From Sphingobacteriaceae bacterium (GTDB lineage Bacteria > Bacteroidota > Bacteroidia > B-17B0 > Aurantibacillaceae): a stretch of 43,557 bases of DNA. The notes beneath the pieces were generated by a model. It had not been told where the DNA came from. It made no database searches and saw nothing but the letters and a program-made list of their open reading frames with translations. The translations under genes and the position numbers were made by a program. Shown piece by piece: positions 8,501 to 25,686 of the stretch (position 1 is its first letter; every line of letters begins with the position of its first letter). Where the stretch lies: positions 1 to 43,557 of the forward strand of contig JAHEYG010000017.1 of the NCBI GenBank assembly GCA_023251725.1, written 5' to 3'.

Positions 8501-11181
8501 ATATTTTGAGTTACAACTATTGGTCCGCTGGTAACACAACCGTTGGAAGTATTTGTTACAGTATAATTATACGTTCCTCCAACGTTAAGGGTTATTGTTC
8601 CGGTTCCGGCACCGCCTGTTATTCCAGGGCCCGTCCAAACATAACTAACCGGTATGCTTGTAGTGGTTGCTACCGCCGTGGTAGAAACAACAGTACAATT
8701 TAAACTACCGGACGATGCGGCTATACTTGGCGTGATTGTATTTTGATTTACAACAATTGCTCCATTGGTTACACAACCATTCGAAGTATTTGTTACAGTA
8801 TAATTATATGTTCCACCGAGATTGAGTGTAATAGTTCCCGTACCGGCTCCTCCTGTTATTCCCGGACCAGTCCAAATATAGCTTGCTGGAGCGGTTGTTG
8901 TAGTTGCGGCGGCTGAAGTTGAAACTACGCTGCAATTTAAACTTCCGGAAGAAGCTGCAACACTAGGAGCTGTTGTATTTTGAGTAACAACAATTGGTCC
9001 GCTTGATTTACATCCATTTGAAGTATTTGTAACAGTATAATTATAAGTTCCTCCCGCATTCAGAGTTATTGTGCCTGTTCCTGCGCCGCCGGTTATTCCG
9101 GGGCCAGTCCAAACATAACTAACGGGAATGGTTGTTGTAGTTGCAGCAGCAGTGGTTGAAGCGGTTGTACAATTTAAACTTCCCGAGGATGGTGCAACAG
9201 TTGGTGGCGTATTATTAAGAGTAACGGCAACGGTTGCAGGTGTTGATGGACAACTTGCAACATTTACTGTTAAGGAATAAGTTCCTGCAACATTTACATT
9301 GGGATTTGCAGTTGCACCTCCTGAAACAATTCCGGGACCCGACCATACATAAGTTCCTCCGCCAGAACCAGCTAAAACTGTTGTCGGATTTGTACAAGTT
9401 AATTGCTGAGGCAGTCCGGCATTTGCAACAGGAATAGGAACTGCAGTTGCGGTTTTACTTACAATTTGAGTACCTCCGCATTGATCGGTAACCACGCCAT
9501 AAACTGTGTAATTTCCTGCGGCAGGAAAATTAATACTTGCCGGTGAACCTGCGGCAACGGTCGGCACCCCTGCGGCATTAAAACTCCATGTAATATTTAA
9601 TGGAGGCACGCCGTATCCTGTACCGTTAGAAGTTGCAGTTATATTTCCACCAGCGCAAACTGTATTTGTAGATAAAGTAAATGGATTAGGAACGTTGGTC
9701 CATTCCACAGTACGTCCCTGTAAAGTAACATTCCAACTTTGTAATCGAGAACATGTGTTAGTAGCGTAGGTACAATTGCATCCCAAAGTATTATTACAAA
9801 ATACACGTAAAAGATTTAAAGAAAATGTTATTGCTTGCGGCAAACAAGAAGCGGGCAAACATTGAACCATGCTTTGACATCCAGACGAAGCAAAAGGAAG
9901 GGTCGGACTCCAAGTTCCGGAAGTAACACAACCGGGAGAGCACGACCAATATAGCCCTGCACCTGAAGGTGTTCTTCCACCACAATTAGAGAGAATTTCC
10001 ACTCTGGGATCACTATTAAGACATGCGCCACCACCTGAACAACAGGTTATTTGCTCAGTGGCCCACGATGTGCTAAAATCCCAAGGCATACTGCCTCCTG
10101 GAAAAGTCAAAGTAAGAACTTGAGTACAAAATAAAGGTGTTAACATTGAACCGATTGTATTCGGAGGCGCAGCTATTGGTCCAACTGCTGTAATTAATGG
10201 GTCAATTGTAAGCGGATAAACAATTCCGGGCATATTTAGAAATGAAGAATCAACATGAAGTTCAATATTGTTACCCATTACTCTGTAATTATTAAACATC
10301 ATGTGAGTTCTGTCTCCTGAACCATCTATTGAAAATGCTTTTCTTATAACATACTGTGTGGTTCCAGAATGATCGTTGATATGAATGTTATCTTCAAATA
10401 ATCCTCCAGTATTGCCTGATAGCTGCGATAATATTAAATCAGATGATAAATTAAGTCGATCGGTTAAAATTAAACGTTTCGCATTTGGAATTGCTGATTT
10501 TACAATGAACATACTTTTTATATGGCTCTCTCCAAACACAATCTTCATATCTATACCTGGAAAAATATTATTTACATACGCTCCGTTATTTCCAACAACG
10601 TAATCCGACCAATTAGGATTATAATTTTGAACATGGTTCCCATTATCAATAACCGTTAAAACATATTGGTTATTCTGTACACTGTATTTATCGCAATTAA
10701 TATTTGTAAAATGCGAATTAAAATTAATAAGGGTAGGATAAACTTGATTGGGAGCGGAGTAAATTCCTGATGATTCTAGATGTAAAGTTGGATTGATAGC
10801 AATTAGTTGTCCGTTTTTCTGGTAATGCATTGGATTGACAGATTTTTGCATGTAAAAAAAAGTCGGGTCATTAATATCAACAAAATATCGCTCGTTGATT
10901 TTTCTTTTCGAAATTACCTCAACTACATTTTTATTTGGCGCATTACAAGGAAGGGTTCCAAAATCAGGATGTGAATAATATTTTGGATCATTATATTTTT
11001 TGCCTATTTCCTCTGCATAAGTTCTTGGCTCAATAATTTTAGAATAATTCTCAAAATGATATTCAAGCCCGTTAGAGGCCTTGGCGTTTTTTTGAGCCAT
11101 AATTGGATCTGATAGAATTAAAATAAGACAAAATAATCCCTTAATTCCTAAGGATACTAGTTTCGATGATTCATTTTGCAT
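5560..11181 (-). CDS. Giant secreted repeat protein (adhesin-like), T9SS type B / gliding-motility-associated C-terminus
   Basis: The 1873-residue product starts with a signal peptide (GLFCLILILSDPIMAQ). Residues of about 30-340 form an unrecognised head ending in YPLTIDPLI, a phrase common at the end of N-terminal domains of SBBP- and Rhs-type surface proteins. A cysteine-rich stretch follows (ITCCSGGGAC onward) and a PKD-like segment. I count 14 Ig/SprB-like repeats around Y-x-W-T-G-P-G-I-T-G-G; five consecutive ones (plus-strand about 8020-9200) keep a 79-80 residue period. Most carry two cysteines (LNC and NGC), suggesting one disulfide per repeat. Next is a PKD domain (YSWNFGNG) and the gliding-motility-associated tail (IPNVFSPNDDGINDVL, IFNRWGQ, GTYFYFVKATG). 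It is a tandem paralogue of the next gene, with a different head. Adhesion is inferred from architecture only. Confidence 0.9.
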   Translation of the reverse strand: MQNESSKLVSLGIKGLFCLILILSDPIMAQKNAKASNGLEYHFENYSKIIEPRTYAEEIGKKYNDPKYYSHPDFGTLPCNAPNKNVVEVISKRKINERYFVDINDPTFFYMQKSVNPMHYQKNGQLIAINPTLHLESSGIYSAPNQVYPTLINFNSHFTNINCDKYSVQNNQYVLTVIDNGNHVQNYNPNWSDYVVGNNGAYVNNIFPGIDMKIVFGESHIKSMFIVKSAIPNAKRLILTDRLNLSSDLILSQLSGNTGGLFEDNIHINDHSGTTQYVIRKAFSIDGSGDRTHMMFNNYRVMGNNIELHVDSSFLNMPGIVYPLTIDPLITAVGPIAAPPNTIGSMLTPLFCTQVLTLTFPGGSMPWDFSTSWATEQITCCSGGGACLNSDPRVEILSNCGGRTPSGAGLYWSCSPGCVTSGTWSPTLPFASSGCQSMVQCLPASCLPQAITFSLNLLRVFCNNTLGCNCTYATNTCSRLQSWNVTLQGRTVEWTNVPNPFTLSTNTVCAGGNITATSNGTGYGVPPLNITWSFNAAGVPTVAAGSPASINFPAAGNYTVYGVVTDQCGGTQIVSKTATAVPIPVANAGLPQQLTCTNPTTVLAGSGGGTYVWSGPGIVSGGATANPNVNVAGTYSLTVNVASCPSTPATVAVTLNNTPPTVAPSSGSLNCTTASTTAAATTTTIPVSYVWTGPGITGGAGTGTITLNAGGTYNYTVTNTSNGCKSSGPIVVTQNTTAPSVAASSGSLNCSVVSTSAAATTTTAPASYIWTGPGITGGAGTGTITLNLGGTYNYTVTNTSNGCVTNGAIVVNQNTITPSIAASSGSLNCTVVSTTAVATTTSIPVSYVWTGPGITGGAGTGTITLNVGGTYNYTVTNTSNGCVTSGPIVVTQNIVTPTLTPAATGSLNCIVPTATLSTTTGVAPVSYLWTGPGITGGAGTGTITCNVGGTYNYTVTNTFNTCKTTGNFIVTQNTAVPSIAAASTGSLNCSVNTVSVSATTTSTPVSYNWTGPSITGGAGTGTITINGGGTYNYTVTNTFNNCVALGNVVVAQNTIVPTTTVSVTGTITCATPSVQLNGAANPGTCTVVWTGGVCGSPIAYTTSACGAGTYTFVATNTFNNCSSIPQSVTVLPNANVPSVVLNNTGTITCITTSVQVAATTTASPVSYVWTGPGITGGAGTPTITVNAGGIYSVVVTNTVNGCSTTITNSITANNAPVTPTATASNTITCSTTTISLTTGAGAGAFNFNWSGPGIIGTNTLATITASLGGSYTATVTDITSGCFGTVSIAASSSTNVPSAISISPSTFTLSCATPTTQLVVTVTGGNTYTWTPPISGTILSGVNSTTANVSGPGIYTVVITGTNGCSAPVATATLIADANSPAVTLSANSGSITCLVAAPGVTATPTGTVTIASYSWSPAGGIASGSNTTTPTFTTAGTYSCLITANNGCTTTTFVTISNNSVIPTASTPTVNNITCGNTNVIINPAYTPTVGLTYTWTGASILGATTNASVTVDQSGTYTVSFVDPSNGCSNTMTVSVNGNTVTPTVTVASTSSIGVGCSASNNTVSLTASSTPSTGVNYIWSNGGVTSVITVTVGGVYSATVTDATNGCSVVTQYTVINNTTLPNVSAGSNTSIPCGSSSLTLNGSSSTSGVTFAWTGGGIVSGSNTPSPIVNAAGIYTLTVTNPTTGCTSQSTVDISLTVVNAAFIEDFITGFAPLNVNFTNLSTGATAYSWNFGNGSAVSTATNPTYIYPNSGVFVVQLIATSGPCSDTAFATINVTDGLTLEIPNVFSPNDDGINDVLTITSTGVKEISLLIFNRWGQKMYEFVGVKAGWDGVTTNGAKAAVGTYFYFVKATGFDDKEINKNGPVSLFR
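8020..9200 (-). repeat. Tandem coding repeats of 237-240 bp in the first giant gene
   Basis: The marker GTATTTGT(T/A)ACA recurs at 8069, 8309, 8549, 8786 and 9023, that is every 240, 240, 237 and 237 bases. Each unit encodes a 79-80 residue Ig-like module containing WTGPGITGGAGTGTIT and TYNYTVTNT. Older, more diverged units continue on both sides. Confidence 0.9.
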
Positions 11182-11456: not shown

Positions 11457-14400
11457 TTATCTGAATAAGCTTACGGGACCGTTTTTGGTAATTTCCTTAT
11501 CATCAAATCCAGTTGCCTTTACAAAATAGAAATAAGTACCGGCGGCAGCTTTGTTTCCGTTGGAATTAACTCCATCCCAAGCTGCTTTTGTGCCTGTAAA
11601 TTCGTACATCTGTTGTCCCCAACGATTAAATATTTGTAATGATAATTCTTTAACTCCAGTAGATTTAATAGTTAAAACATCATTAATTCCATCATCATTG
11701 GGAGTAAATACATTTGGAATTTCAATTGACAATCCATCATTCACCAAAATATCCATTATTGCGGTATCACTACATAAACCAGATGTAGCAATTAAAGTCA
11801 CTACAAAAGAACCATTGCCATTATAAACGTTAGAAGTGCTGGTTTGTGTCGAAGTTGCACCATTACCGAAATTCCAATTATAAGTAACTGCGCCAATACT
11901 AGTATTAGTAAAGTTAACGGTAAGAGGCGCAACACCAACAGTGAAATCAGCCATGAACCCTGCAATAACTGTTGTATTAATAATCGCAACAGTTGAAGTT
12001 GAAAAACAACCTGTATTAGGGTCGGAAACGGTTAGAGTATAAATACCGGCCAAATTTACTATTGGGGTTGGGGTATTAGAACCGGAAACAATACCATTTC
12101 CTAACCAAGTGTAAGTTACGCCGGAAGTTGTAGAAGTACCGCTAAGTACAGAAGTTGCACCTGCACCGCAAGGCAAGGCGCCATTAGTACCTGCGTTAGC
12201 ATTAGGAATTGCAGTGTTATTATTTACAGTATATAAAACTGCAACTGAACAACTGTTAGAAGGATCGGTGACAACAACAGAATAATTACCCGGCGTTGAA
12301 GTCGACATAGTAGAAGTAATTACCCCTGTTGACCAACTAAAGGTAAGCCCTATAGTTGGTGAAGTATTTGCAGTTAAAACTGCAGTTCCGGTACCAGGCG
12401 CGCAACCAATTCCTAGTGTTGAGGTAGAAGAACTAACAGTAGCCGTTGGCGCTACCGTGTTACCAATTACAGTCACGGTAATTGTATTTGAACATCCGTT
12501 ACTTGGGTCGGTTATATTCACCGAATACGTTCCGCTTTGATTAACAGTTACACTTCCGTTTGTTGTTGCCCCTACAATTCCTCCCCCAAACCAAATATAA
12601 GTTAAGCCAGTTGTTGGCGTGTAAACCGGATTGATGATCACACTTGTGTTTAAGCATGATATATTATTTACCGGAATTCCAGCAGTGGTTGGGATAACAC
12701 TATTATTACTAACAGTTACAAAAGTAGAACTCGTACATCCATTATTCGCGGTAATTAAACACGAATAAGTTCCCGCAGCCGTAAATGTAGGAGTCGTTGT
12801 ATTAGCACCTGTTGCTATTCCTATTGTAGGAGACCAAGAATAAGTTGCTATGGTTACTGTTCCGGTTGGAGTTATTGTAACACCTGGTGCTGTATTTAAA
12901 CAGGTAATGCTTGTTGCACCTGTAGATAATGTAACCGACGGCGCATTAGAATTAGCAACTATAATGGCAGTTGCTGCCGGTGCAGAACAACCGTTAGTTC
13001 CTGTTGCAACTACCGAATAAGTTCCGGGACCTGAAATTGTAGCACTTGTTGAATTAACACCACTTAAAATCGAACCTGAAACAGGGGCAGTCCATGTATA
13101 AGTAGTTCCACCTGTAGTTGTAACTACTAATTGTGTGGTTGGAGTTGCACAAGACAAAGTAAAACTTGAAGGCGTGACTGAAATTGAAGTTGGAACAGAA
13201 GTATTAGTAATTGCAGAAATACTTACAGTGCCTGTACAGCCACTAGTTGTTTCGGTTACAGTGGCGGTATAAGCTCCTCCTACACTTGAAGTAATAGTTG
13301 ATAAAGTATTAGATCCAACTATTCCAGCGCCCGACCAATTGTAAGTAAACGAACCGGCTCCGGCTCCGGCAGTTAAGTTTATCGTAGTTGTATTACATGT
13401 TAAAGTATTGGAAGCCACTGCCGTCGGTGTAACTGGAGCGTTATTTGCTGTAACACTGTTTGTAATTATGGAGGAACATCCGTTTAATGTATTGGTGAGA
13501 GTAAGGGTATATACACCACCCATATTTACAGTGATCGTTTGCGTTCCTGCTCCGGCTATAATTCCAGGTCCTGACCAAGTATAAATCACAGGTGCGGCAG
13601 CAGTGGTAGATGTAACTTGCGATGTTAACACTAAACAAGTAAGCGTTCCTGTATTTGCGAGGGTTGCTATTGGAGATCCAGCGTTAGGAAATACCTGAAC
13701 CGTAGAAGAAGCTGAACAACCATTTGCAGGATTGGTAGCAGTCATTGTAAATATTCCGGCAGAACAAGCTGAAGCAGTGTAAGAAGTTGGACCGGCACAA
13801 ACACCACCGGTCCATACCACCGTACAAGTCGAAGGATTGGCAGAACCAATAATTTGTACCGAAGGGGTTAAGCAAGTAACAGTTTGAGAAGAACCTGCAT
13901 TTGCAGTGGGCGGAATTGTAAAATTACCAACAGCACTATTAACTATTGCTGTACAACCATTAACTGAACTTGTAACCAACAAAGAATAGGTTCCAACCTG
14001 ATTAACATTTACAGTCATTTGATTGGAAGCGCCAATTACTCCCGGGCCTGTCCAGCTATATAAAACTCCACCAGCCGGAGCACCCGATAAAGTTACTAGG
14101 GTGTTAGTACAAGTAATAGAAGGAGTAGGACTAATTGAAGGAGTTGGTGCAACCGTATTTGTGGTAGGTAGAACTGTCGTTGAGTTGGTGCATCCATTTG
14201 CAGGATTAATTACAACAACCGAATAAACTCCAGGCCCCGAGCCTGTGGCAAATTGTGAATTTACCCCTGATGTTATTAGTCCTCCAAAAGGAGGTGACCA
14301 AGTATAACTCATTCCGGCAGGGGTTACGGTTAAATTCATTGCCGGAGAAACACAAGTAACTGTTCCTGCGGAAGTGGCAAGAGCAGCAGGGGCAGTGGTG

Positions 14401-16799
14401 TTTTGTATCACAGCAATAGTGCCGGTTGTTTTACAACCATTAGAAGTATTTGTAACAGTATAATTGTATGTTCCGGGACTGTTTACAGTGGCAGTACCGG
14501 TATTTGCACCTGCGGTAATACTTGGACCAGTCCACGTATAAGTTACGGGGGCAGCACCAGTAGTTGAACCAACAGTAGTAGTTAATACAGTACAATTTAA
14601 GCTACCTGCTGTAGCAACAACCGGTGGTAATGTAATATTTTGCGCTACTGCAACGTTTCCTGTAGTTGTACATCCATTCGATGTATTTGTTACTGTGTAA
14701 TTATATGTTCCGGGTAAATTTACAGTCGCAGTTCCTGTTAAAGCGCCCCCTGTTATTCCGGGTCCGGTCCAATTATAACTTACAGGAGCGGCTCCGGTAG
14801 TTGATACAACAGTAGTTGATATAACTGTACAATTTAAACTTCCTGACGATGCGGCTACAGCCGGAGCAGTAATGTTTTGTACCACAGAAACATTTCCGCT
14901 GGTGACACAACCATTGGAAGTATTTGTAACTGTGTAATTATAAGTTCCGGGTAAATTTACTGTAGCGGTTCCAGTAAGAGCTCCGCCGGTTATTCCTGGT
15001 CCTGTCCAATTATAACTTACAGGAGCGGCTCCGGTAGTTGATACAACAGTAGTTGATATAACTGTACAATTTAAACTTCCTGACGATGCGGCTACAGCCG
15101 GAGCAGTAATGTTTTGAGCAACTGCAACATTTCCGCTGGTAACGCAACCATTAGAAGTATTTGTAACAGTATAGTTATATGTTCCGGGTAGGTTTACGGT
15201 GGCGGTACCGGTTAAGGCTCCTCCGGTTACTCCGGGACCAGTCCAGTTATAACTTACAGGAGCGGCTCCAGTTGTTGAAGCGACTGTTGTAGATAATACA
15301 GTACAATTTAAACTTCCTGATGACGCAACAACAGGTGGCGCAACTATATTCTGTAAAACAACAGTGTTTCCTGTTGTTTTACAACCATTAGAGGTATTGG
15401 TAACCGTATAATTATAAGTGCCAGGTAAATTCAATGTTATTGTACCCGTTCCTGCTCCTCCGGTAATACCCGGACCAGTCCAAACATAACTTACGGGTGC
15501 AGCACCTGTAGTTGCTGCTGCTGTTGTAGAAACTACAAGGCAATTTAAACTTCCTGAAGATGGAGCAACACCGGGTGGGGTTGTATTTGTATTAACGGCG
15601 ACCGTAGCAGCCGGAGAAGTACAACCATTTACAGTTACGCTTAATGTAAAAACACCGGATAAATTTACGGTTGGATTGGCAGTTGCTGCTCCACCTGTGA
15701 TTCCTGCCCCAGTCCAAGAATAAGATCCTCCACCCGATCCGACAAGGACGGTGGATGGATTAGTACAGGTTATTGATTTAGAAGGTCCGGCATTTGCTAC
15801 AGGAACGGGAGTAACGCTCACTGAAATGGCGTTTGATGCACTACAGAGTGCAGAAATACCAACTGAATAAGTTACAGGATAAGAACCAGCACCTACTGAA
15901 GGGCAGAAGGAGTTTGTTACTACGCCCGTTCCAACCCAAGTTCCGCCGGCAGTTCCGGTAACTTGTGGAGGCAGATTAACACAAGGGCCGTTAGCACAAA
16001 GTGGACCAATGGCTGTCCAAGATGCGTTATATGGATTTGTTACATAAATAGTGCGAGCTGCGGTTACAATTGGACAAACTCCATTTCCGGTATTGAATGT
16101 ATAGGTAATTGTATAAGTCGTTCCGGGGGTTAGTAACGAAGTAACGAGTTGTGCTTCTGCCCATGGATAACTTGTTAGAGCCCCAGCTACAAAAGGTAAA
16201 ATATTATAAGTACAGGTGCCAATTGTTGTATTCGCAGGAATAACAATAGGAGGATTACAACCAACAAAACCTGCATTCCAGATTCCGGTAGTAATCGCCA
16301 CATTATTATAACAACTTGAAACGGAATAATTCATGTTCGGAACTGCCGACGCAACGTTGCAGATTGACCAAGTGTGAGAACCCGTAGGATCTAAATACGA
16401 AGCAAACAAAGTACTGTTTGAATTATTTGGCATTGGACCAATGTTATTTGCACAAGTTCCAAGAGGGCCTTGACAGCCAACTAAATTTAGAGCAGGATAT
16501 TCGAAAAGGGTGATTGAATTTCTTGTAGCTGAATTAGCATTTGTAGGATTAACAATAAATCTCATACAGGGAGTATTGAAAAGATTAGCCCCTGAACCCG
16601 GTTGTTGTGGATACATGAATATATTACCGCTATTGCAGGCAACAGTATTACTAACAATTGGAGTGAAAGTAGCATCATAGTAATCCAAAGTATTACCGGC
16701 TCCAAGATATAAGTTCACACATTGGGCATAGCTTTTGTGGTTTATAAACGCCAAGGAAAAACACAATAAAATTAGAGTAGTAATTTTTTTCATATTCAT
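11457..16799 (-). CDS. Second giant secreted repeat protein (adhesin-like), T9SS type B / gliding-motility-associated C-terminus
   Basis: The 1780-residue product has a signal peptide (KKITTLILLCFSLAFINHKSYAQ). Two starts are possible: ATG at 16799 (MNMKK) or 16793 (MKK). The head of about 330 residues is rich in cysteine and aromatic residues, unlike the head of its paralogue, and I do not recognise it. I count 16 Ig/SprB-like modules around Y-x-W-T-G-P-G-I-T-G-G; modules 2-6 have a strict 79-residue period and two share a 113-base identical stretch. A PKD domain (YNWNFGNG) and a gliding-motility-associated tail (IPNVFTPNDDGINDVL, IFNRWGQ) close it, with the tail nearly identical to that of the neighbour. 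Several modules also match the paralogue in order (for example the VVWTGGVC module), so the pair arose by duplication and head replacement. It lies 39 bases behind a small secreted-protein gene with a strong promoter and probably shares its transcript. Confidence 0.9.
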   Translation of the reverse strand: MNMKKITTLILLCFSLAFINHKSYAQCVNLYLGAGNTLDYYDATFTPIVSNTVACNSGNIFMYPQQPGSGANLFNTPCMRFIVNPTNANSATRNSITLFEYPALNLVGCQGPLGTCANNIGPMPNNSNSTLFASYLDPTGSHTWSICNVASAVPNMNYSVSSCYNNVAITTGIWNAGFVGCNPPIVIPANTTIGTCTYNILPFVAGALTSYPWAEAQLVTSLLTPGTTYTITYTFNTGNGVCPIVTAARTIYVTNPYNASWTAIGPLCANGPCVNLPPQVTGTAGGTWVGTGVVTNSFCPSVGAGSYPVTYSVGISALCSASNAISVSVTPVPVANAGPSKSITCTNPSTVLVGSGGGSYSWTGAGITGGAATANPTVNLSGVFTLSVTVNGCTSPAATVAVNTNTTPPGVAPSSGSLNCLVVSTTAAATTGAAPVSYVWTGPGITGGAGTGTITLNLPGTYNYTVTNTSNGCKTTGNTVVLQNIVAPPVVASSGSLNCTVLSTTVASTTGAAPVSYNWTGPGVTGGALTGTATVNLPGTYNYTVTNTSNGCVTSGNVAVAQNITAPAVAASSGSLNCTVISTTVVSTTGAAPVSYNWTGPGITGGALTGTATVNLPGTYNYTVTNTSNGCVTSGNVSVVQNITAPAVAASSGSLNCTVISTTVVSTTGAAPVSYNWTGPGITGGALTGTATVNLPGTYNYTVTNTSNGCTTTGNVAVAQNITLPPVVATAGSLNCTVLTTTVGSTTGAAPVTYTWTGPSITAGANTGTATVNSPGTYNYTVTNTSNGCKTTGTIAVIQNTTAPAALATSAGTVTCVSPAMNLTVTPAGMSYTWSPPFGGLITSGVNSQFATGSGPGVYSVVVINPANGCTNSTTVLPTTNTVAPTPSISPTPSITCTNTLVTLSGAPAGGVLYSWTGPGVIGASNQMTVNVNQVGTYSLLVTSSVNGCTAIVNSAVGNFTIPPTANAGSSQTVTCLTPSVQIIGSANPSTCTVVWTGGVCAGPTSYTASACSAGIFTMTATNPANGCSASSTVQVFPNAGSPIATLANTGTLTCLVLTSQVTSTTAAAPVIYTWSGPGIIAGAGTQTITVNMGGVYTLTLTNTLNGCSSIITNSVTANNAPVTPTAVASNTLTCNTTTINLTAGAGAGSFTYNWSGAGIVGSNTLSTITSSVGGAYTATVTETTSGCTGTVSISAITNTSVPTSISVTPSSFTLSCATPTTQLVVTTTGGTTYTWTAPVSGSILSGVNSTSATISGPGTYSVVATGTNGCSAPAATAIIVANSNAPSVTLSTGATSITCLNTAPGVTITPTGTVTIATYSWSPTIGIATGANTTTPTFTAAGTYSCLITANNGCTSSTFVTVSNNSVIPTTAGIPVNNISCLNTSVIINPVYTPTTGLTYIWFGGGIVGATTNGSVTVNQSGTYSVNITDPSNGCSNTITVTVIGNTVAPTATVSSSTSTLGIGCAPGTGTAVLTANTSPTIGLTFSWSTGVITSTMSTSTPGNYSVVVTDPSNSCSVAVLYTVNNNTAIPNANAGTNGALPCGAGATSVLSGTSTTSGVTYTWLGNGIVSGSNTPTPIVNLAGIYTLTVSDPNTGCFSTSTVAIINTTVIAGFMADFTVGVAPLTVNFTNTSIGAVTYNWNFGNGATSTQTSTSNVYNGNGSFVVTLIATSGLCSDTAIMDILVNDGLSIEIPNVFTPNDDGINDVLTIKSTGVKELSLQIFNRWGQQMYEFTGTKAAWDGVNSNGNKAAAGTYFYFVKATGFDDKEITKNGPVSLFR
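14400..15590 (-). repeat. Tandem coding repeats of 237 bp in the second giant gene
   Basis: Five consecutive modules keep a 237-base period (for example GTATTTGT at 14683 and 14920). Bases 14767-14879 and 15004-15116 are identical over 113 positions, pointing to recent duplication or gene conversion of this unit. Confidence 0.9.
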
Positions 16800-17289: not shown

Positions 17290-19188
17290 TTACTTTTTTT
17301 TAAACATTGAATCGATTTGACCAATAAATCCTGAAACTTGGGTGTTGCCGGGATTAATGTTTAAGGCTTGTTGATAATACTTTCTGCAAACGAGAGTATC
17401 CTTATTTAAAAAATAAAGTTGTCCCAGAGAAACATTTAATAATTCGGAATCGGGCTGTTTTTTCAATTCAGATTCAAAGTATAAAATTCCTTCTTTTATA
17501 TTAGTATTGGCATAACAACTTCCTAAAACTTCATATGGAACAGTAAATTTTGTTCCTCTGCTTGATTTAACTGCTTTAAACAAAAAATATTTTGCACTAT
17601 CGATTTTATTAAGTTTGAAATAGGCAATTCCCAAATTAGCCAAAAGCTCTTTTTTAATTGTATCACGTGCATAGGCTGGTTTTAAATAGCGCAATGCCGA
17701 AAGAGGATCATTCTTATACGAAAGATATAAATAGGCTAAATTATTGAGGCATCCGTTACAGGTAGAATCTTCCTTCACAGCATTTATCAATAGCTTTTCA
17801 GAAAATAACATTTTATTTAATTTATCATTTTGTTTAATTGAACTTTTTTCATTGGATAATTGAACAATTACTTCTGAGCTGGTGAGTAAACTTAATTTAA
17901 CCGATTCGGGATAATTTTTAACATCAGCTTCAAACAGTGTGAGCCGATCTTTCCATTCTTTGTTTCGGCTGATTATCAATCCTCCAAAAAATACCAAAAT
18001 TACCAGTGAAATAGATTTTTGTTTAATATTTAACTGGGAAAATTGAACAGGATATTTCTTTGTTTTTGAGTTAAAAAATAAAACCTGAATTAGAATTAAA
18101 GAGAAACCAATAGAGGCAAAAAATAAAAATCTATCAGCAACAATCCCCGGGGCCGGGGCCACAATATTTAAATACATTGATATAGAAAAACAGAAAAACA
18201 CAATTCCATACCAAATGAAATCGGGTTTATTGAACTTTATTATAAAAAAATAAAATAATGTTCCAGAAATAATTAATCCCAACAAAGCATATAGAGAAGT
18301 GAATGAAAAGACCTGAATAACACTATGCCCATAATACGAAGCCATTTTTGTTGGCAGCAGCAACATTTTAGCATAAAATCCCAGGGAATTTAAAGCCGCT
18401 GAAATTTTTAGAATGAACCCTTTCTCAAAATACAAAGGGTTTTCGAAATACATAAAAACACGGTATTCTACTGCCCTTCCCATTACTCCCCGCTTGGTTA
18501 ATTTATACATCACAAATGCCAATAAAAATAAAATTACAATTCCAATAATTGTTTTAATATTTATTTTACGCTGTTTTAATAATATTATCGGGATAATGGC
18601 GATGTAAGGAACTACATCGAATTTACTTAAATACGCCAACGCAAAAAGCAGTAAAGCAAAAAACATTCTGTACCATTTTTTGATATCGGTATAACGAATT
18701 ACCTGAATAAAACCAAGAAGAGTAAAAATGAAACTAAGAAGGACATCGCGATTTTTAAGGCTCACCACCACTTCTGAATGAACTGGAATAAATGCGAAAA
18801 TTAAAACTGCCAGAAACAAAGTGAAAGGTGGAAATTCTTTAAACAGTAAACGAAACAATTTAAAAAGCAAAATCAGCGTCAGCCAATAGAAAATGATATT
18901 AAAAAAATGTCCGCGCTTAGGATTCTCCCCGAAAATACCACTTTCAATAGCGAAAGAAACTTTTACCATTGGTCGGTATTCGTATTTATTATCGCTTTCG
19001 TCTTTAACATGAAAAGTTTTGAAAGCTTTTGGAATGGCTTTAAATCCCTGGGCTGTGATATTATCTTTACCGGTTACAAACTCATCATCGAGGGCATAAC
19101 CATTCCCAATAATATTTCCATATAAAATAAAAACTACTAACAGAAGTAAACTCTGGTATTTATATTTTTGAAAAAATGATTTCATCAT
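17290..19188 (-). CDS. TMTC-like GT-C membrane glycosyltransferase with C-terminal TPRs
   Basis: The 632-residue protein has about ten hydrophobic segments in its first 400 residues and a soluble helical C-terminus with TPR-like pairs (ALRYLKPAYARD, ANLGIAYFKLNKIDSAKYF, VSLGQLYFLNKD). The N-terminal features follow TMTC/PMT-type enzymes: acidic pair D34-D35 in the first luminal loop, Y-R-P-M at 71-74, and H-S-E-V-V with N-R-D at about 138-148. Such enzymes move a sugar from a polyprenyl-phosphate donor to a protein or glycan on the outer side of the membrane. It is last in a minus-strand run after the MBOAT-SGNH gene (22-base gap) and the GTG-started sulfotransferase. Two ATGs are adjacent at 19188 and 19185. 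Whether it modifies the nearby giant adhesins is unknown. A plain TPR membrane protein without catalytic activity is the alternative. Confidence 0.75.
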   Translation of the reverse strand: MMKSFFQKYKYQSLLLLVVFILYGNIIGNGYALDDEFVTGKDNITAQGFKAIPKAFKTFHVKDESDNKYEYRPMVKVSFAIESGIFGENPKRGHFFNIIFYWLTLILLFKLFRLLFKEFPPFTLFLAVLIFAFIPVHSEVVVSLKNRDVLLSFIFTLLGFIQVIRYTDIKKWYRMFFALLLFALAYLSKFDVVPYIAIIPIILLKQRKINIKTIIGIVILFLLAFVMYKLTKRGVMGRAVEYRVFMYFENPLYFEKGFILKISAALNSLGFYAKMLLLPTKMASYYGHSVIQVFSFTSLYALLGLIISGTLFYFFIIKFNKPDFIWYGIVFFCFSISMYLNIVAPAPGIVADRFLFFASIGFSLILIQVLFFNSKTKKYPVQFSQLNIKQKSISLVILVFFGGLIISRNKEWKDRLTLFEADVKNYPESVKLSLLTSSEVIVQLSNEKSSIKQNDKLNKMLFSEKLLINAVKEDSTCNGCLNNLAYLYLSYKNDPLSALRYLKPAYARDTIKKELLANLGIAYFKLNKIDSAKYFLFKAVKSSRGTKFTVPYEVLGSCYANTNIKEGILYFESELKKQPDSELLNVSLGQLYFLNKDTLVCRKYYQQALNINPGNTQVSGFIGQIDSMFKKK

Positions 19189-19210: not shown

Positions 19211-21700
19211 CTATTTTAAAAATTTAAATTTTTGTTTATTATTCAATATTTCTTCCAACAATTTATCGGCAATAACCTTATGGCCTTTTTTATTGGGATG
19301 CGCGTCCCATATAGATAACTGAATAGTTTCAGGATTGTTCCCCTGATAAACTCCCTCTAAATCAATTATTTCAAAACCGGTATTTTTCGATTCTTTAAAA
19401 CAAAATGATTTATCTTTATCTTTTCTTAAACTGGCATTGGCCGGCAAATAAATAAACACCGGAAAAATATTATTTTGTTTGCAATAATCAGCAATGGTTT
19501 TGTATCCCCAACTAACCATTTCATTCCCAAAAGGTTTAATTTTATTATTTTTTTCGAGTCGGCACATGTGATTATTTACACCTGAAGAGGAATAAATGCT
19601 ATCTAAAAAATTAAATGAAAGTGGCTTGCCTTTCTCAATAACGTTTACAAAATTATCAACGCTCCGCGTAACTTCACCAGTGTGCGCAAAATAAAAAAGA
19701 TAATCGGGTTTAATATTTTTAATCTTGTTCAAAGTCACATAAACATTTTGCAGAAGATGGTAACCCCCGGCTCCAAAATTTAATATTTCAATTTTACTTT
19801 TCGAATATTTATTTATTTCATTCTCGAAAAGGGAGGCGAAATTTTCGTTATTGGAAACACCTGAACCCATTTCATAAGACCCGCCGAGCAAAGCAATTCG
19901 TATCGTACCGGAATCTTTAACCGGCGAATATTCTTTGTCGCGGAGCCCGAATTGATTGGTAGATAAACTATCGCCTTTGAATACTGTTCTAAAATTTGGT
20001 TTAAACTCTTTGATTAATATATTATTTACAGGAAAATAAGCGAGATTATCGAGATTCCATTTTTTATTCTCGTTTTTGATATTAAACAAATCTATGGCTT
20101 TATCATCGTTGTTTAATAATTGTTCGTAATAGCCTCTTTCCATTTCTAACCTGTCTTTATTATTGAGATTATTATGAGCAAAATTTAAAACATTCGTTCG
20201 GTAAGAAGAGCTTTGCAGAATGAAAAATAAAATTATTAATAAGGAATTACAAATTATCCCCGATAAAACAGTGAATTCTTTAAATACAAATCCAAACATT
20301 TTTTTTGTATCGTATAAATATCTGATAATGGAAGCGATTGCAATAAATAAAATTATTGCTCCGCTAAAAATTAAAATATCCCACAGTGAGCCTGTTTTCA
20401 CAAAAGACAAAAGATACCACCACTCGGTAATTGAATTTGATGTCCAAAAGCTCCACAAGAAACCCATTACCACCAACATAAAAATAACACTTGCACCTTT
20501 TTTTACAAACTCTAAAGAATTTGATTTTTTTATTTTGACTTTATCGAACTCCTTCAAAAACAAAACAGAACTTGTAGAAATAGTAATCCCTAAAAAACAC
20601 CAGAATAAAATATCGTTCGGATTAAAAACGAATTTGCCTTTTATCCAAAGCCACTGCCAATTATGAAAAAACCAAGTGCAAAAAAACATAAACAGCGTCG
20701 TTAATAAAATCGCCATTTTTATTGGTATTTTTTTTAATTTGAAGAGAACAGGATAATAAAAAACACGGGTAATAAAATCGCGCCAATATAAATTTATTCG
20801 ACGCCATAAGTCGGGAAAGCTTGTTGCAAAAAAATAATTATCAAAAATTTCGGGAAGTGAAAACCCAAACAAGGTTAAAAACCCCAATGAAATATAAAAC
20901 AATCCCGAAAGGCGAAGAATTAAAGAGTAACCGGAAAATATGAACAAAATTAAATTCCAAAAACTCTCTATTTCATAGGGCGAAGGCGTTAAGTACAAAT
21001 AAACGAAACGGTAAATCAGGGTATGCAAAATTCCACGCGTAATCCATTTCAAACCTTGCTCCAACGATTTTTGGGCCGGTTGAGAGTAGAATCGTGAGAA
21101 AAATAATTTAGGATCTACAATTGGAAATAAAGGAAAGCAGGCTTGCGGTAACATAAATAAATAACATAATCTGTCAATGAAAACAGGTTTGTTTTTAAAA
21201 TATCTTAATTCGTACAATAGAAAAATATAACGTAGCATTAAAAAAACTGAGCCGTACATAATAGTTATTCTCACCATTGAATTGGCAAAGCCATTCATTA
21301 TAAAAAATGCACCTACTCCGGTAAAAATCAAAGCCAAAATATTTCTTAACGAAAAATTGGGAATATAAGTTAAGGCAACAAAAAACAAGATAATAGCGAG
21401 TACACCCGTTGCCGGGAAAATTCCCAGTAAATAAATTTCGATGGCAAAAGCGAAGAGAAGAAGCACTATTTTTCTCAATGAAATTGGCAAAAACATATAA
21501 AGGATAAATCCGCCACTAAGAATGAAAACCGCTTTATCGAACCCCTTATTTTTTTCGATACCAAATGTGTAAATAAGATAAACACACAGCAAAAGCCATA
21601 TTAAATGAAAGGAAAGACGGGCCGAATATTTATATTTAGAATTGGAAACCTGAAGATCGGAATACACTGGTAAAAATTGATTTTTAATGGAGTCAGGCAT
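19211..21700 (-). CDS. Fused MBOAT O-acyltransferase and SGNH hydrolase-like protein
   Basis: The first ~500 of 829 residues are membrane helices. They contain the MBOAT signature S-F-P-D-L-W-R-R at 294-301 and the helix T-W-F-F-H-N-W, whose His346 matches the invariant MBOAT histidine. From about 590 a soluble SGNH domain follows: IRIALLGGSYEMGSG with Ser608 as likely nucleophile, the oxyanion block NFGAGGY at 641-647, the stretch FAHTGE near 673, and D799-x-H801 in WDAHPNKKGH. In known systems (AlgI with AlgJ/AlgX, PatA/PatB, DltB/DltD) the MBOAT protein brings acyl groups across the membrane and a separate SGNH protein places them on the glycan; here both halves lie in one chain. It is probably co-transcribed with the sulfotransferase before it and the TMTC-like gene after it, so a surface glycan is the likely acceptor. 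Confidence 0.85.
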   Translation of the reverse strand: MPDSIKNQFLPVYSDLQVSNSKYKYSARLSFHLIWLLLCVYLIYTFGIEKNKGFDKAVFILSGGFILYMFLPISLRKIVLLLFAFAIEIYLLGIFPATGVLAIILFFVALTYIPNFSLRNILALIFTGVGAFFIMNGFANSMVRITIMYGSVFLMLRYIFLLYELRYFKNKPVFIDRLCYLFMLPQACFPLFPIVDPKLFFSRFYSQPAQKSLEQGLKWITRGILHTLIYRFVYLYLTPSPYEIESFWNLILFIFSGYSLILRLSGLFYISLGFLTLFGFSLPEIFDNYFFATSFPDLWRRINLYWRDFITRVFYYPVLFKLKKIPIKMAILLTTLFMFFCTWFFHNWQWLWIKGKFVFNPNDILFWCFLGITISTSSVLFLKEFDKVKIKKSNSLEFVKKGASVIFMLVVMGFLWSFWTSNSITEWWYLLSFVKTGSLWDILIFSGAIILFIAIASIIRYLYDTKKMFGFVFKEFTVLSGIICNSLLIILFFILQSSSYRTNVLNFAHNNLNNKDRLEMERGYYEQLLNNDDKAIDLFNIKNENKKWNLDNLAYFPVNNILIKEFKPNFRTVFKGDSLSTNQFGLRDKEYSPVKDSGTIRIALLGGSYEMGSGVSNNENFASLFENEINKYSKSKIEILNFGAGGYHLLQNVYVTLNKIKNIKPDYLFYFAHTGEVTRSVDNFVNVIEKGKPLSFNFLDSIYSSSGVNNHMCRLEKNNKIKPFGNEMVSWGYKTIADYCKQNNIFPVFIYLPANASLRKDKDKSFCFKESKNTGFEIIDLEGVYQGNNPETIQLSIWDAHPNKKGHKVIADKLLEEILNNKQKFKFLK

Positions 21701-21755: not shown

Positions 21756-22643
21756 TTACCAGTTAAATTTTTTACCAAGTATTTTAAAAAGTTTTTCATT
21801 GTAAGGTTTGTAAAACTTATTTAGCGAATCAAAAGTTTCGGGTTTCATTTTTTCGGAAGAACCTTCGTTTAATTTATTAAATATTATTTTATTACTATTT
21901 TTTATTCCCGCAAATTCACAAATCTCACCAAACACTTTTTCCGGATTTTCAAAATAGTTTTCGCTACTGTTGATGTAAATATTATTTTTAGGGATAGAAT
22001 TTATCCAATTAGCCACACTATCGCAATAAATTCCCCGCGAGCGATATCCCAAACGGTAAAAAGCATAATTGTGGTTTTTGTCGGCTATTTCTTTTTTATC
22101 AGCCGTATTAATTCTCTTTTCTTCCAATTCAAGAGCTTTTTCAAAATCGGTTGATTCAAATCCTTTTTTAACTGAAAATTTGTAATGCGAAAACGCACGG
22201 TCCGCAGGGTTACGAAGCAACAAAATAACTTTTGCATTTTTATGATTGCTTAAAATTCTCTGCGGCGCATATATATTTTCGAACGTATCAGTACTTGCAT
22301 CCACCGAATATGCCGGAAGTTTTAATTTGTTTTGCCGCGCGGCTTTGTAAAGTTTAGTAGCAAAAAACTGTTTGTAATATAAAACGCCTTTCGCAAATCT
22401 GGTATTGTTGCCGTAAAAGAACATTTCTTTAGCTTTGGAAGAAATAATTTGCGGATGCTGCACTAAATTATCATATAAAGAAGTGGTTCCTCCTTTTTGA
22501 ACACCAATTATAAAAATATCGGGATTGATACGCAAAAACGAAGTAGCCCGCACAAAAGCAGAAGCAACCAGCGCATCATGTTTATTAAAGACTAATGACT
22601 CGTTATAAAACAATTCATTCAGCATTTGATTCTGAATTTTCAC
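21756..22643 (-). CDS. Sulfotransferase (NDST-like family)
   Basis: The 295-residue protein should transfer sulfate from PAPS to a glycan. It shows the 5'-phosphosulfate loop in IFIIGVQKGGTTSLYDNL, with the catalytic-type lysine of QKGGTT, and the 3'-phosphate site in VILLLRNPADRAFSHYKFS, in the form typical of heparan-sulfate-type enzymes. A late helix with S-E-N-Y-F-E-N-P is where these enzymes position the second substrate. The start at 22643 is GTG; an ATG at 22625 would give MLNELFYN and remove six residues, and both leave the domain intact. It is the first gene of the minus-strand run with the MBOAT-SGNH and TMTC-like genes and is divergent from a second sulfotransferase 36 bases away. 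Confidence 0.85.
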   Translation of the reverse strand: MKIQNQMLNELFYNESLVFNKHDALVASAFVRATSFLRINPDIFIIGVQKGGTTSLYDNLVQHPQIISSKAKEMFFYGNNTRFAKGVLYYKQFFATKLYKAARQNKLKLPAYSVDASTDTFENIYAPQRILSNHKNAKVILLLRNPADRAFSHYKFSVKKGFESTDFEKALELEEKRINTADKKEIADKNHNYAFYRLGYRSRGIYCDSVANWINSIPKNNIYINSSENYFENPEKVFGEICEFAGIKNSNKIIFNKLNEGSSEKMKPETFDSLNKFYKPYNEKLFKILGKKFNW

Positions 22644-22679: not shown

Positions 22680-23576
22680 ATGCCATTAAAAAAACTTGCC
22701 GATAAGTTTCATACGTTTACAAATTTACTCATTAAAGATAGTTTCCCTACACTTAGTTTGTATTATTATACAAAACCGCGCCTGTATTTGTATTGGAGAA
22801 CGCAGCCCATTCACCGTTTAATTAAAGGCGAAAATGTTTCTAATTGCACCAAACCAAGTTTCATTTTTTTTACGGTGCACAAAAGTGCTTCTACTTTAAT
22901 GGTTAATTTTATTGAGGCTTTATCTAAAATTACCGGACTCGTTCAAATTGATTACAACGGCTATTTTGCCACGGAAGGCGCCAAAGGTTTAGAAAAACAA
23001 AACAATTCACAATTAATTAAAAAAGTTTTTAAACCAAACGGATATATTTATGGTCCGCTTAGGAATTTTATTAATGTACCCCAAATTGATAATTACCCTA
23101 TAATACTTTTGCTGCGCGACCCGCGCGACATATTAACTTCGCAATATTTTTCCATTAAAAAAACGCATCCTTTAATTACTAAAAAATTAATTGAACGGAG
23201 AGAAATAGCAATGAATTCGACCATTGATGAACATGTAAAATCAGAACAAGCCGATAGGTTTTTTCAAACTTATTCGATTTATATTGATAAAATTTTAGGA
23301 AAAAAAAATGTTTTGTTTTTGAAATATGAAGATATGGTGAATGATTTTCGCAGTTTTATTTTGCAAATAAATGCGCATCTTAAATTAAATTTAAGCGAAC
23401 AACAAATTAATTCGCTGGACTTAACAAAGACTTTTAAAATTAAAAGCGAAGATCAAAATAGTCATAAACGAAAAGTTACGCCCGGAGATTACAAAGAAAA
23501 ATTGCAGCCCGAAACCATTGAATGGCTCAATAAAAAATTTGAAACAATTTTAAAAAAACTTAATTACCCCATTTAA
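22680..23576 (+). CDS. Sulfotransferase domain protein
   Basis: The 298-residue product has a PAPS-binding loop in the variant form FFTVHKSASTLMVNFI and a clear 3'-phosphate site in IILLLRDPRDILTSQYFS. A later F-L-K-Y-E-D-M-V-N-D strand-helix is the usual third landmark of sulfotransferases. There is no signal peptide, so it acts in the cytoplasm on lipid-linked or soluble precursors. It starts the rightward operon; its stop overlaps the next ATG by one base (TAATG). The sequence is only distantly similar to its two sulfotransferase neighbours, so the three probably act on different positions. The catalytic lysine lies in HKSAST. Confidence 0.8.
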   Translation: MPLKKLADKFHTFTNLLIKDSFPTLSLYYYTKPRLYLYWRTQPIHRLIKGENVSNCTKPSFIFFTVHKSASTLMVNFIEALSKITGLVQIDYNGYFATEGAKGLEKQNNSQLIKKVFKPNGYIYGPLRNFINVPQIDNYPIILLLRDPRDILTSQYFSIKKTHPLITKKLIERREIAMNSTIDEHVKSEQADRFFQTYSIYIDKILGKKNVLFLKYEDMVNDFRSFILQINAHLKLNLSEQQINSLDLTKTFKIKSEDQNSHKRKVTPGDYKEKLQPETIEWLNKKFETILKKLNYPI

Positions 23577-24508
23577 TGTTGCAACTAAAATTACAATATA
23601 TAGAAGAAAACAAATGGTTTCATCAATGGTATAATCGTTTTTGTTTGGATAAATTAAATAAGAACCGAAATTTATATACCGATTCAACCACAGAAATCTC
23701 CAACGAAAAACCCTTGTTTATTACCGGATTTTTTAGATCGGGAACGAGCGTTACCGCAAAATTATTAAATATAATGGGAATGGATTTGGGACCAGAAAAA
23801 CATTTATTGAAAGCTAAAAATAAACGGGCTCAATTAAATCCGGATGGTTTTTTTGAGAATTATTTGTTCATGGAAACTTCTCTAATGCTTTTTACAAAAC
23901 TAAATTCCTGGGGGCACCTCCCCCCCACCGAATCGGCTTTAAACAATTTCGAATTCAGCGCCACCGATAAACAAACATTTGCCGAATTTACTTTATGCGG
24001 CGTGCACGACGACAGAATAAGTAATAAAAACAAAATGGCCGTTTTAAAAAACTACGACCTTTTCTCATTAAATACTTACCTCCAAAAAGAATTTAAATTT
24101 CCTTACGCCATTAAAAATCCACATTTTTCGGTGATGACTGAATTTTTATTAAAAAAATGGCCGCAAGCAACCCTCTTAGTTTGTTTCAGAGAACCTATGG
24201 CAGCCATTGCTTCTGCGGCAAAAATAACTTCTATGCTTAATCAGGAAATTTATTTAAAATACTACGAGCAATTAGTAAAATTACCTGACAACAAAGTCGC
24301 TTTTTTTTCGTTTGATCATTTATTGAAAAACCCTCAAAAATCGCTGAACGCATTATGTAATAATTTTAATTTAGCCACCCAAAAAATTAAAATCGCCGAG
24401 TCAATCATTAAACCGGCTTTGCACCGTTACAAAAATGCCGGCGAAATTACCAACGAAAAAGTAAAAGAAATTTACCATTTAATGATAAATAAAGCCATCA
24501 ATAAATGA
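23576..24508 (+). CDS. Sulfotransferase family protein
   Basis: The 310-residue protein has a PAPS-type loop in FITGFFRSGTSVTAKLL and a 3'-phosphate-like site in LLVCFREPMAAIASAAK, followed by VAFFSFDHLLKNP. The RSGT loop, with arginine where others have lysine, is common in the sulfotransferase-3 and related families of bacterial glycan clusters. It overlaps both neighbours (one base upstream, ATGA downstream with the GT4 gene), so translation is coupled. It is the third sulfotransferase in 2.8 kb. The acceptor is unknown. Confidence 0.78.
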   Translation: MLQLKLQYIEENKWFHQWYNRFCLDKLNKNRNLYTDSTTEISNEKPLFITGFFRSGTSVTAKLLNIMGMDLGPEKHLLKAKNKRAQLNPDGFFENYLFMETSLMLFTKLNSWGHLPPTESALNNFEFSATDKQTFAEFTLCGVHDDRISNKNKMAVLKNYDLFSLNTYLQKEFKFPYAIKNPHFSVMTEFLLKKWPQATLLVCFREPMAAIASAAKITSMLNQEIYLKYYEQLVKLPDNKVAFFSFDHLLKNPQKSLNALCNNFNLATQKIKIAESIIKPALHRYKNAGEITNEKVKEIYHLMINKAINK

Positions 24509-25686
24509 AAGTGGTTCATTTAAATACTTATACCGAAGGAGGCGCCGCACAAGCTGCACTAAGAATAAACGATGCTTTATTAAAACAATGCTTCGGCGGG
24601 CTCAGCATAGAAAGTAAATTTCTGGCGCTTTACAACAACCAAAATAAAGTTGCTATTGACTTCAGAGATGAATTAAATGTATTTGAAAATTATTTTCTGA
24701 AACTAAAAAATAAACTCCGTGCTTTAAAATTAGAAAAAAAATATTACGAGGCCGAAGAATTATTTAGCGAATTGGAAACGGTTTGGGAGGTAAAAAAACA
24801 TTCACTCATAAAAAATTCGGATATTTTGCATTTGCATTGGATTTCTTCTTTTGTTGATATTCCTTCCTTTTTTCATCTGCAAAATAAAAAAATAGTTTGG
24901 ACTCTTCACGATTATTTTCCGTTTTCGGGAGGCTTTCATTATCCTATTAATGAAATTAAAGAAGAATGGTTTAAAAAAATAGAATTGCAAAAAGATATTA
25001 TTGAGAAAATATTTTCGGAAACTAAAATTGATTTTGTTTTTCCCTCCGAATATTTAAAACAAATAGCGAAAGATTCAAATGCATTGGGAAATAATAATTG
25101 TCAGGTAATAAAAAATCCGGTGGATGTAAATTTGTTTAAGCCTTTGGATAAAAATGCCTGTAGAGATAAACATTTAATTAATAAAACCAAGCCCGTTCTT
25201 TTTTTCTTATCCGATTATTTTAATTATCCCCGCAAGGGATTTGCTTTACTGGCAAAAGCGCTCTCTTTAATAAATAAAGAGGTGACGTTAATTACTGCGG
25301 GAAGAGGAAAATTACCTTCTGTAATTGGTAAAGCAGAAATTAAATATTTTGGATTGATGCAAAATAAAAATTTACTCGTTGAATTATATAATTGTGCCGA
25401 CCTATTGGTAAATCCAAGTTTAGCCGATATTTCAAGCAATACAGTTATTGAAGCCATGGCTTGCGGAATTCCTTCGGTAACATTTGCAACCGGTGGAATT
25501 CCGGAATTAATTACTGAGGTAAACGGAATAATTGCCAATGAAACTTCTGCGCAAGCCCTAGCCGAATCGATAAACTTAGCATTGAGTAAAAATTACGATC
25601 CAGGTAAAATTAAAAGTTTAGCAGAACAAAATCATTCGTTTGAGGTGATTGGCAAGAAATATGCAACTCTTTATTCGCCATTATAA
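24505..25686 (+). CDS. Glycosyltransferase family 4 (GT-B fold)
   Basis: The 393-residue protein starts MKVVHLNTYTEGGAAQAAL, the glycine-rich N-terminal loop of GT4 enzymes. It has the H-D-Y-F-P-F-S-G-G-F-H-Y phrase that I know from the WcaC-like branch of bacterial polysaccharide enzymes. The nucleotide-sugar site is the NTVIEAMACGIPSVTF segment with the following GGIPELI, giving the E-x7-E arrangement. It should work on the cytoplasmic face, adding a hexose to a growing lipid-linked glycan; the sugar cannot be told. Its ATGA overlap with the sulfotransferase before it supports one transcript. Confidence 0.88.
   Translation: MKVVHLNTYTEGGAAQAALRINDALLKQCFGGLSIESKFLALYNNQNKVAIDFRDELNVFENYFLKLKNKLRALKLEKKYYEAEELFSELETVWEVKKHSLIKNSDILHLHWISSFVDIPSFFHLQNKKIVWTLHDYFPFSGGFHYPINEIKEEWFKKIELQKDIIEKIFSETKIDFVFPSEYLKQIAKDSNALGNNNCQVIKNPVDVNLFKPLDKNACRDKHLINKTKPVLFFLSDYFNYPRKGFALLAKALSLINKEVTLITAGRGKLPSVIGKAEIKYFGLMQNKNLLVELYNCADLLVNPSLADISSNTVIEAMACGIPSVTFATGGIPELITEVNGIIANETSAQALAESINLALSKNYDPGKIKSLAEQNHSFEVIGKKYATLYSPL

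Follow-up and report, generated by a model that had tools for sequence, protein, structure and literature searches.

The gene at positions 19211-21700 on the minus strand of the window, by which we mean the whole 43,557-nt stretch of DNA analyzed, encodes a single protein of 829 amino acids in which an MBOAT membrane domain is joined to an SGNH domain. The single-chain fusion is confirmed. By profile and by fold the protein belongs to both superfamilies, with two departures: the FXYXXF tail is missing, and the block III position of the SGNH half is a His. We propose, with a probability of about 0.6, that the protein is a one-chain, Dlt-like surface-glycan acyltransferase and that the donor of its family is a proline-derived acyl group held on a carrier protein; the acyl path, the donor, the acceptor, and the donor used by this particular copy are inferred. 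The gene and the parts of the chain are as follows.

19211-21700, minus strand: fused MBOAT-SGNH O-acyltransferase, 829 amino acids (intact ORF with full-length homologues in many phyla)
20177-21637, minus strand: MBOAT half, residues about 22-508, the multi-helix membrane part (from hhalign, Foldseek, and the helices of the model)
20663-20665, minus strand: His346, putative MBOAT catalytic His (conserved in 98/98 homologues)
20126-20134, minus strand: Gly523-Tyr524-Tyr525, in the linker that follows the final membrane helix; candidate acyl-Tyr shuttle (from conservation; role inferred)
19214-20032, minus strand: SGNH half, residues about 557-829 (from hhalign and Foldseek matches to TesA/EstL5)
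19877-19879, minus strand: Ser608, the block I nucleophile in GGSYEMG (98/98)
19682-19684, minus strand: His673, where classical SGNH enzymes have the block III Asn (His 68/98, Thr 15/98, Asn 5/98)
19298-19306, minus strand: Asp799-x-His801, block V (Asp 94/98, His 98/98)

The ORF begins with ATG and has no internal stops, and the numbering of His346, Ser608, Asp799, and His801 was found to be correct when checked against its translation. Neither a Pfam scan nor a PDB sequence search with the single 829-residue protein returned a match, and a search for homologous loci with it as the query found nothing. NCBIfam returned only a weak, sub-threshold SGNH match (NF047475, E 1e-3). Because the single-sequence Pfam, NCBIfam, and PDB searches gave almost nothing, profiles and structure were required, and the family profile was built from an alignment of 16 fused proteins. 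In an hhalign comparison with standalone Bacteroidota MBOATs (16-sequence profile), the N-terminal half was matched over residues about 63-440 with a probability of 98.7 and an E-value of 3.8e-16, and His346 fell on the His of the WHG motif. The standalone proteins used in this comparison match PF03062 with E 2e-30; among the fused members, 3/16 matched MBOAT_2 weakly (best E 0.006). The C-terminal half aligned with standalone SGNH proteins (16-member profile, hhalign) with E 8e-36. AT3 (PF01757) was sought in the 16 fused members and was found in none.

An AlphaFold model of the fused protein had a mean pLDDT of 80.4 and a pTM of 0.78. A Foldseek search of the PDB with this model gave HHAT (E 8e-6) and DltB (E 1e-5) as the top matches, followed by SGNH esterases of the TesA/EstL5 type (E 6e-5 to 1e-3). 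The sequence-only reading had placed an MBOAT signature with His346 and an SGNH domain with Ser608 and Asp799-x-His801 on one chain, and it would have fallen had profiles failed to assign the N-terminus to MBOAT or had a structure model lacked the central tunnel with His346 at its core. The intact ORF, the alignments of both halves, the fold matches, and the homologues described below all bear it out, and neither refuting result was obtained.

Complete single-chain homologues were found in 5 other species of the same genus, in 9 further Bacteroidia genomes from three other families, and on a Microvirga plasmid. With matches below E 1e-60 counted, the fusion was present in 13/395 Bacteroidia genomes. 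A search with the 16-sequence alignment, taking one genome per species, retrieved 264 loci encoding relatives, of which 79 were kept for locus counts. The record titles name Bacteroidota, Rhodothermales, Acidobacteria, Alpha-, Beta-, and Gammaproteobacteria, Deltaproteobacteria, Gemmatimonadetes, Hydrogenedentota, Planctomycetota, Verrucomicrobiales, and Anaerolineales. In the 79 loci the matching frames span nearly the whole profile, except where a contig end truncates them. An apparent split of the gene in genome G260 proved to be a stretch of N within it and not a true split.

To measure conservation, 98 full-length proteins drawn from roughly nine phyla were aligned. The invariant residues are His346, Ser608, His801, Asp196, Gln349, Trp367, Trp419, and Tyr525. 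The block V spacing in the fused proteins is D-x-H and not D-x-x-H. The residue counts at the block III position depend on the alignment; the Microvirga homologue reads VANTAE there.

Two or more copies of the fusion, complete or cut by a contig end, occur in 12/79 loci. At L081, L092, L101, L109, L125, L134, L138, and L149, two to four fused genes stand in tandem within a single cluster; such arrays suggest that one polymer has several acyl sites or acceptors. Locus L091 (10151-11596, plus strand) encodes a standalone PF03062 MBOAT with an FXYXXF tail, in a cluster that also holds a fused copy.

FXYXXF is an acyl-shuttle motif: PatA is acylated on its Tyr, and DltX uses it too (PMC12148441). 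All 13 of the standalone MBOATs checked from the same genomes (13/13) have an FXYXXF tail, either FIYFRF or one like it; the motif was sought in the fused proteins and is absent. Between Trp419 of the MBOAT core and Pro568 of the SGNH core, the near-invariant residues are essentially Asp516 and the Gly-Tyr-Tyr at 523-525 (Gly523 97/98, Tyr524 97/98, Tyr525 98/98), and Tyr524-Tyr525 are the sole near-invariant Tyr residues after the MBOAT core. Gly-Tyr-Tyr was not seen at the equivalent place in the standalone SGNH relatives examined. We infer from this pattern that one Tyr of the pair is a candidate built-in acyl shuttle. The linker bearing the pair is modeled with low confidence (pLDDT about 43-69). 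Lys/Arg-rich loops at 321-327, 386-395, and 466-478 alternate with acidic or neutral loops. On the positive-inside rule, this pattern implies that helix 478-495 leads outward and thus that the SGNH half lies outside the cytoplasm; by the same inference the helix that holds His346 (327-354 in the model) would run outward.

Unsupervised clustering of the neighbors of the fusion in the 79 loci ranked AMP-binding adenylation enzymes (37 loci) and acyl-CoA-dehydrogenase-like proteins (34 loci) first. A further cluster (cluster 2, 16 loci) consisted of apparently spurious frames lying antisense to real genes in GC-rich genomes and was set aside. Profile searches located a small carrier-protein gene directly downstream of the fusion and on the same strand in 43/79 loci, the carrier bearing a DSx phosphopantetheine site, and found carrier, adenylation (A) domain, and dehydrogenase together in 42/79. 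In this conserved operon the carrier gene usually comes before genes for a PltF-like prolyl adenylation enzyme and for a prolyl-carrier dehydrogenase like PigA, RedW, and AnaB. The full cassette was not seen within reach in the other 37/79 loci, and some Rhodothermales and Saprospiraceae loci with tandem fusion copies have no carrier. Since the cassette profiles were built from fusion neighborhoods, the locus counts serve to describe the family and do not test the association independently.

In the PDB the cassette dehydrogenase best matched the prolyl-ACP dehydrogenase 4irn (4e-97), with 6cxt and the L-prolyl-PCP dehydrogenase 5zw0 next. Its NCBIfam scores, 6e-138 for PigA and 7e-126 for RedW, are both below the NCBIfam cut-offs, so it is a relative whose orthology is unproven. 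The A-domain matched PltF (6o6e) with 1e-70 and 9e-59; this L-proline-carrier ligase was its best standalone match, coming after gramicidin and other NRPS modules, and the domain also scores with DltA models. Among 58 A-domains with a readable specificity code, 22 read DLLYLALVCK and 19 DLFYLALVCK, codes beginning with EP having been discounted as a wrong motif match. We take these two sequences to be the code of proline enzymes in pyrrole pathways; a literature search for them gave no confirmation. The specificity residues and the similarity to PltF suggest that the substrate is proline, without a substrate assay. The carrier protein matches PltL. Its best NCBIfam match was to an ornithine-lipid ACP, which was below the cut-off and was not taken as its function.

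A flavin halogenase, matching CmlS and PltA, is present in 15/79 loci. It often stands at the end of the cassette (L067:1468, L071:11100, L077:11139-12533, L084:13987, L102:12555, L118:12432, and others), and for this reason some members may handle halogenated acyl groups.

The association extends beyond gene neighborhoods. In the 395 Bacteroidia genomes, 10 of the 11 genomes with the dehydrogenase (cassette-derived profile, E 1e-100 or better) also have the fusion (hypergeometric p 1e-16). Because this profile came from fusion neighborhoods, the curated PigA model was used for a second test, in which the fusion was present in eight of the nine best genomes (8/9, p 8e-13); the cut of E 1e-90 or better was chosen after the gap had been seen, the next matches being at 1e-83. 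The genomes are related, and both p-values overstate independence. In G145, G260, and G334 the fusion and the dehydrogenase are on different contigs, and the link is therefore not only one of adjacency. The fusion occurs without the dehydrogenase in the window genome (75% complete), in G329 (72%), and in G112 (99%). One genome has a PigA-like dehydrogenase without the fusion (G233:C1:126656-127789, minus strand, E 1e-108), the only such Bacteroidia genome in the sample; the surrounding genes may reveal a different role for this cassette.

The immediate neighbors of the fusion in the window are the following.

17290-19188, minus strand: GT-C-like (PMT_2) membrane protein with a TPR tail, next downstream (PF13231, E 1.7e-7; 56% identity to the L073 gene)
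21756-22643, minus strand: sulfotransferase, the upstream neighbor (PF00685, E 1e-21; 52% identity to the L073 gene)
22680-23576, plus strand: sulfotransferase (PF00685, E 5e-13; 69% identity to the L073 gene)
23576-24508, plus strand: sulfotransferase-like protein (PF13469, E 2e-10; 38% identity to the L073 gene)
24505-25686, plus strand: group 1 glycosyltransferase (PF13692, E 1e-21; 36% identity to the L073 gene)

This block of sulfotransferases, glycosyltransferase, and GT-C-like TPR protein is common to the window and to a sister species (G001). Three sulfotransferase-like genes stand beside the fusion (21756-22643, minus strand, and 22680-24508, plus strand), and such genes also flank many relatives (roughly 13-17 of the 79 loci), for which reason the acceptor glycan may also be sulfated. 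Wzm/Wzt exporters are present in about 10 of the loci. Elsewhere in the window, two very large related repeat proteins (5560-11181 and 11457-16799, both minus strand) resemble one large protein that the sister species encodes at the corresponding position, the latter of the two with a C-terminal domain resembling gliding-type C-terminal tails; a Fic/DOC family protein with a Fic_N domain is encoded at 39749-40885 (plus strand).

Profile searches of the 43,557-nt window found no cassette genes, and neither the cassette dehydrogenase nor the A-domain was found in the window genome, which is 75% complete. Loss and an assembly gap cannot be told apart here, and the absence may be one of missing sequence. 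The sister species carries a fusion 61% identical to the window copy in a syntenic cluster and has the carrier, A-domain, and dehydrogenase about 4.6-7.4 kb away from it. The donor of the window copy is accordingly inferred from its relatives, its own incomplete genome showing no cassette.

The mechanism that we propose runs as follows. The MBOAT half would take an activated acyl group at the cytoplasmic side and pass it through the His346 tunnel; one of the tyrosines in the Gly-Tyr-Tyr linker would carry it, just outside the membrane, as an acyl-Tyr ester; and Ser608 of the extracytoplasmic SGNH half would accept it and pass it on to a hydroxyl group on an exported polysaccharide. The roles of DltB, the DltX shuttle, and DltD would thus be combined in one polypeptide. 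Neither the loss of FXYXXF nor the family-wide link to the carrier and prolyl-activation cassette featured in the earlier reading. That link makes an acyl-carrier protein a likelier donor than acyl-CoA, and a charged peptidyl carrier protein is the most likely family donor. It would bear proline oxidized to a pyrroline- or pyrrole-2-carboxyl group, halogenated in some species; evidence from sequence cannot distinguish the pyrroline from the pyrrole product, and the pyrrole nature of the group is itself an inference. Transfer to a glycan is likewise inferred, no acyl-glycan having been observed. We give even odds to the broader proposal of a widespread pathway in which carrier-bound proline is oxidized, sometimes halogenated, and esterified to a surface polysaccharide by the fusion through its acyl-Tyr linker.

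It is possible, although we do not favor it, that the family is mixed, with cassette-linked members using the proline-derived acyl group and others, possibly including the window copy and the tandem copies, having switched to acetyl-CoA or another thioester. The window genome without a cassette would fit such a division, as would the tandem copies in 12 of the loci, which suggest diversification. However, the sister species has the cassette beside a syntenic fusion, and the absence from an assembly of this completeness may be only apparent.

More doubtful is a fused O-acetyltransferase of the PatAB/AlgIJ kind, which would draw on acetyl-CoA while the neighboring cassette served another product. 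Acyl-CoA is thought to be the donor for most characterized bacterial MBOAT/SGNH pairs (PMC12148441), no cassette was found in the window genome, and the full cassette is not seen near the fusion in 37/79 loci. Against this stand the carrier gene directly downstream of the fusion in loci of several phyla, the genome-level co-occurrence that holds also across contigs, and the lack in the fused proteins of the FXYXXF shuttle of acyl-CoA-type MBOATs.

We regard it as very unlikely that the two halves share no transfer path, the MBOAT half acylating a lipid or protein as HHAT does and the SGNH half acting as a deacylating esterase. HHAT is the top fold match and SGNH domains are often hydrolases, but DltB is an equally good match, the fusion and both active sites have been kept over about nine phyla, and the neighborhood, with its sulfotransferases, glycosyltransferases, and Wzm/Wzt exporters, is one of surface-glycan biosynthesis. 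Nothing was found in favor of an artefact, whether a sequencing error that merged two genes or a remnant without activity, and it is already refuted by the 98 aligned full-length proteins, which come from independent assemblies and have the same fusion with intact catalytic residues.

The one-chain acyltransferase that we favor can be set against the two known routes of bacterial envelope acylation, one relying on an MBOAT paired with a distinct SGNH protein and the other on a fusion of AT3 and SGNH domains (PMC12148441). The earlier reading had drawn the same division between two-protein MBOAT systems and fused AT3-SGNH enzymes, in agreement with that source. No literature was found on a fused MBOAT-SGNH protein, or on an MBOAT with an adenylation and carrier cassette and a polysaccharide, in a search limited to open-licence papers, which is no proof of absence. 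The fused MBOAT-SGNH protein would be a third bacterial design for acylating envelope polymers, found in roughly nine phyla. With donor site, candidate shuttle, and transferase in a single chain, the hand-over of the acyl group could be tested in one purified protein, and the predicted surface modification would be detectable by mass spectrometry. If the proposal is true, bacterial surfaces are coated with (halo)pyrrole esters.

The PatA/PatB, AlgI/AlgJ-AlgX, and WssH-type pairs move an acyl group through an MBOAT for transfer to a polymer by an extracytoplasmic SGNH protein, as we propose for the fusion, but they are separate proteins with an FXYXXF tail on the MBOAT and an acyl-CoA donor where this has been shown; the non-Dlt MBOAT/SGNH pathways have no carrier protein (PMC12148441). 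The AT3-SGNH enzymes OatA and OafA/OafB share with the fusion a single-chain layout in which an extracytoplasmic SGNH domain comes after the membrane acyltransferase, and OatA has an acyl-Tyr intermediate. The membrane half of the fusion is, however, an MBOAT, and since the AT3 domain is absent the fusion is not an AT3-SGNH enzyme. In the PC-esterase/Cas1p group, an SGNH-like domain has W/H at the block III Asn position (PMC2824669). That group resembles the fusion in having this Asn replaced and in combining the SGNH-like domain with a membrane acyltransferase in one protein (PMC2824669), whereas the membrane half of Cas1p is of the AT3-like 10TM type and the domain order differs.

The carrier, A-domain, dehydrogenase, and halogenase of the cassette have relatives in the pyrrole-2-carboxyl carrier pathways (PltF/PltE/PltL/PltA, PigA, RedW, and, for anatoxin, AnaB). 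In those pathways the product feeds a soluble natural product, whereas the product of the fusion cassette would go onto the cell surface. A close parallel at the level of the family is Dlt (DltA/DltC/DltB/DltX/DltD), which D-alanylates teichoic acid using an MBOAT, an SGNH protein, a dedicated carrier, and an amino acid-adenylating enzyme; DltB is among the top fold matches of the fusion, and the cassette A-domain also matches DltA. Unlike Dlt, the fusion has MBOAT and SGNH on one chain throughout and no DltX-type FXYXXF that we could see, and the hosts are of the Gram-negative type; where the cassette is present, its A-domain residues are of proline type, and it adds a prolyl-carrier dehydrogenase and in some loci a halogenase. 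Because the two-protein layout is not met, the fusion is a member of neither Dlt nor PatAB, although we propose that it works like both. With its cassette, it would be the second carrier-protein-dependent MBOAT system after Dlt, and one with an unusual cargo known from antibiotics and pigments.
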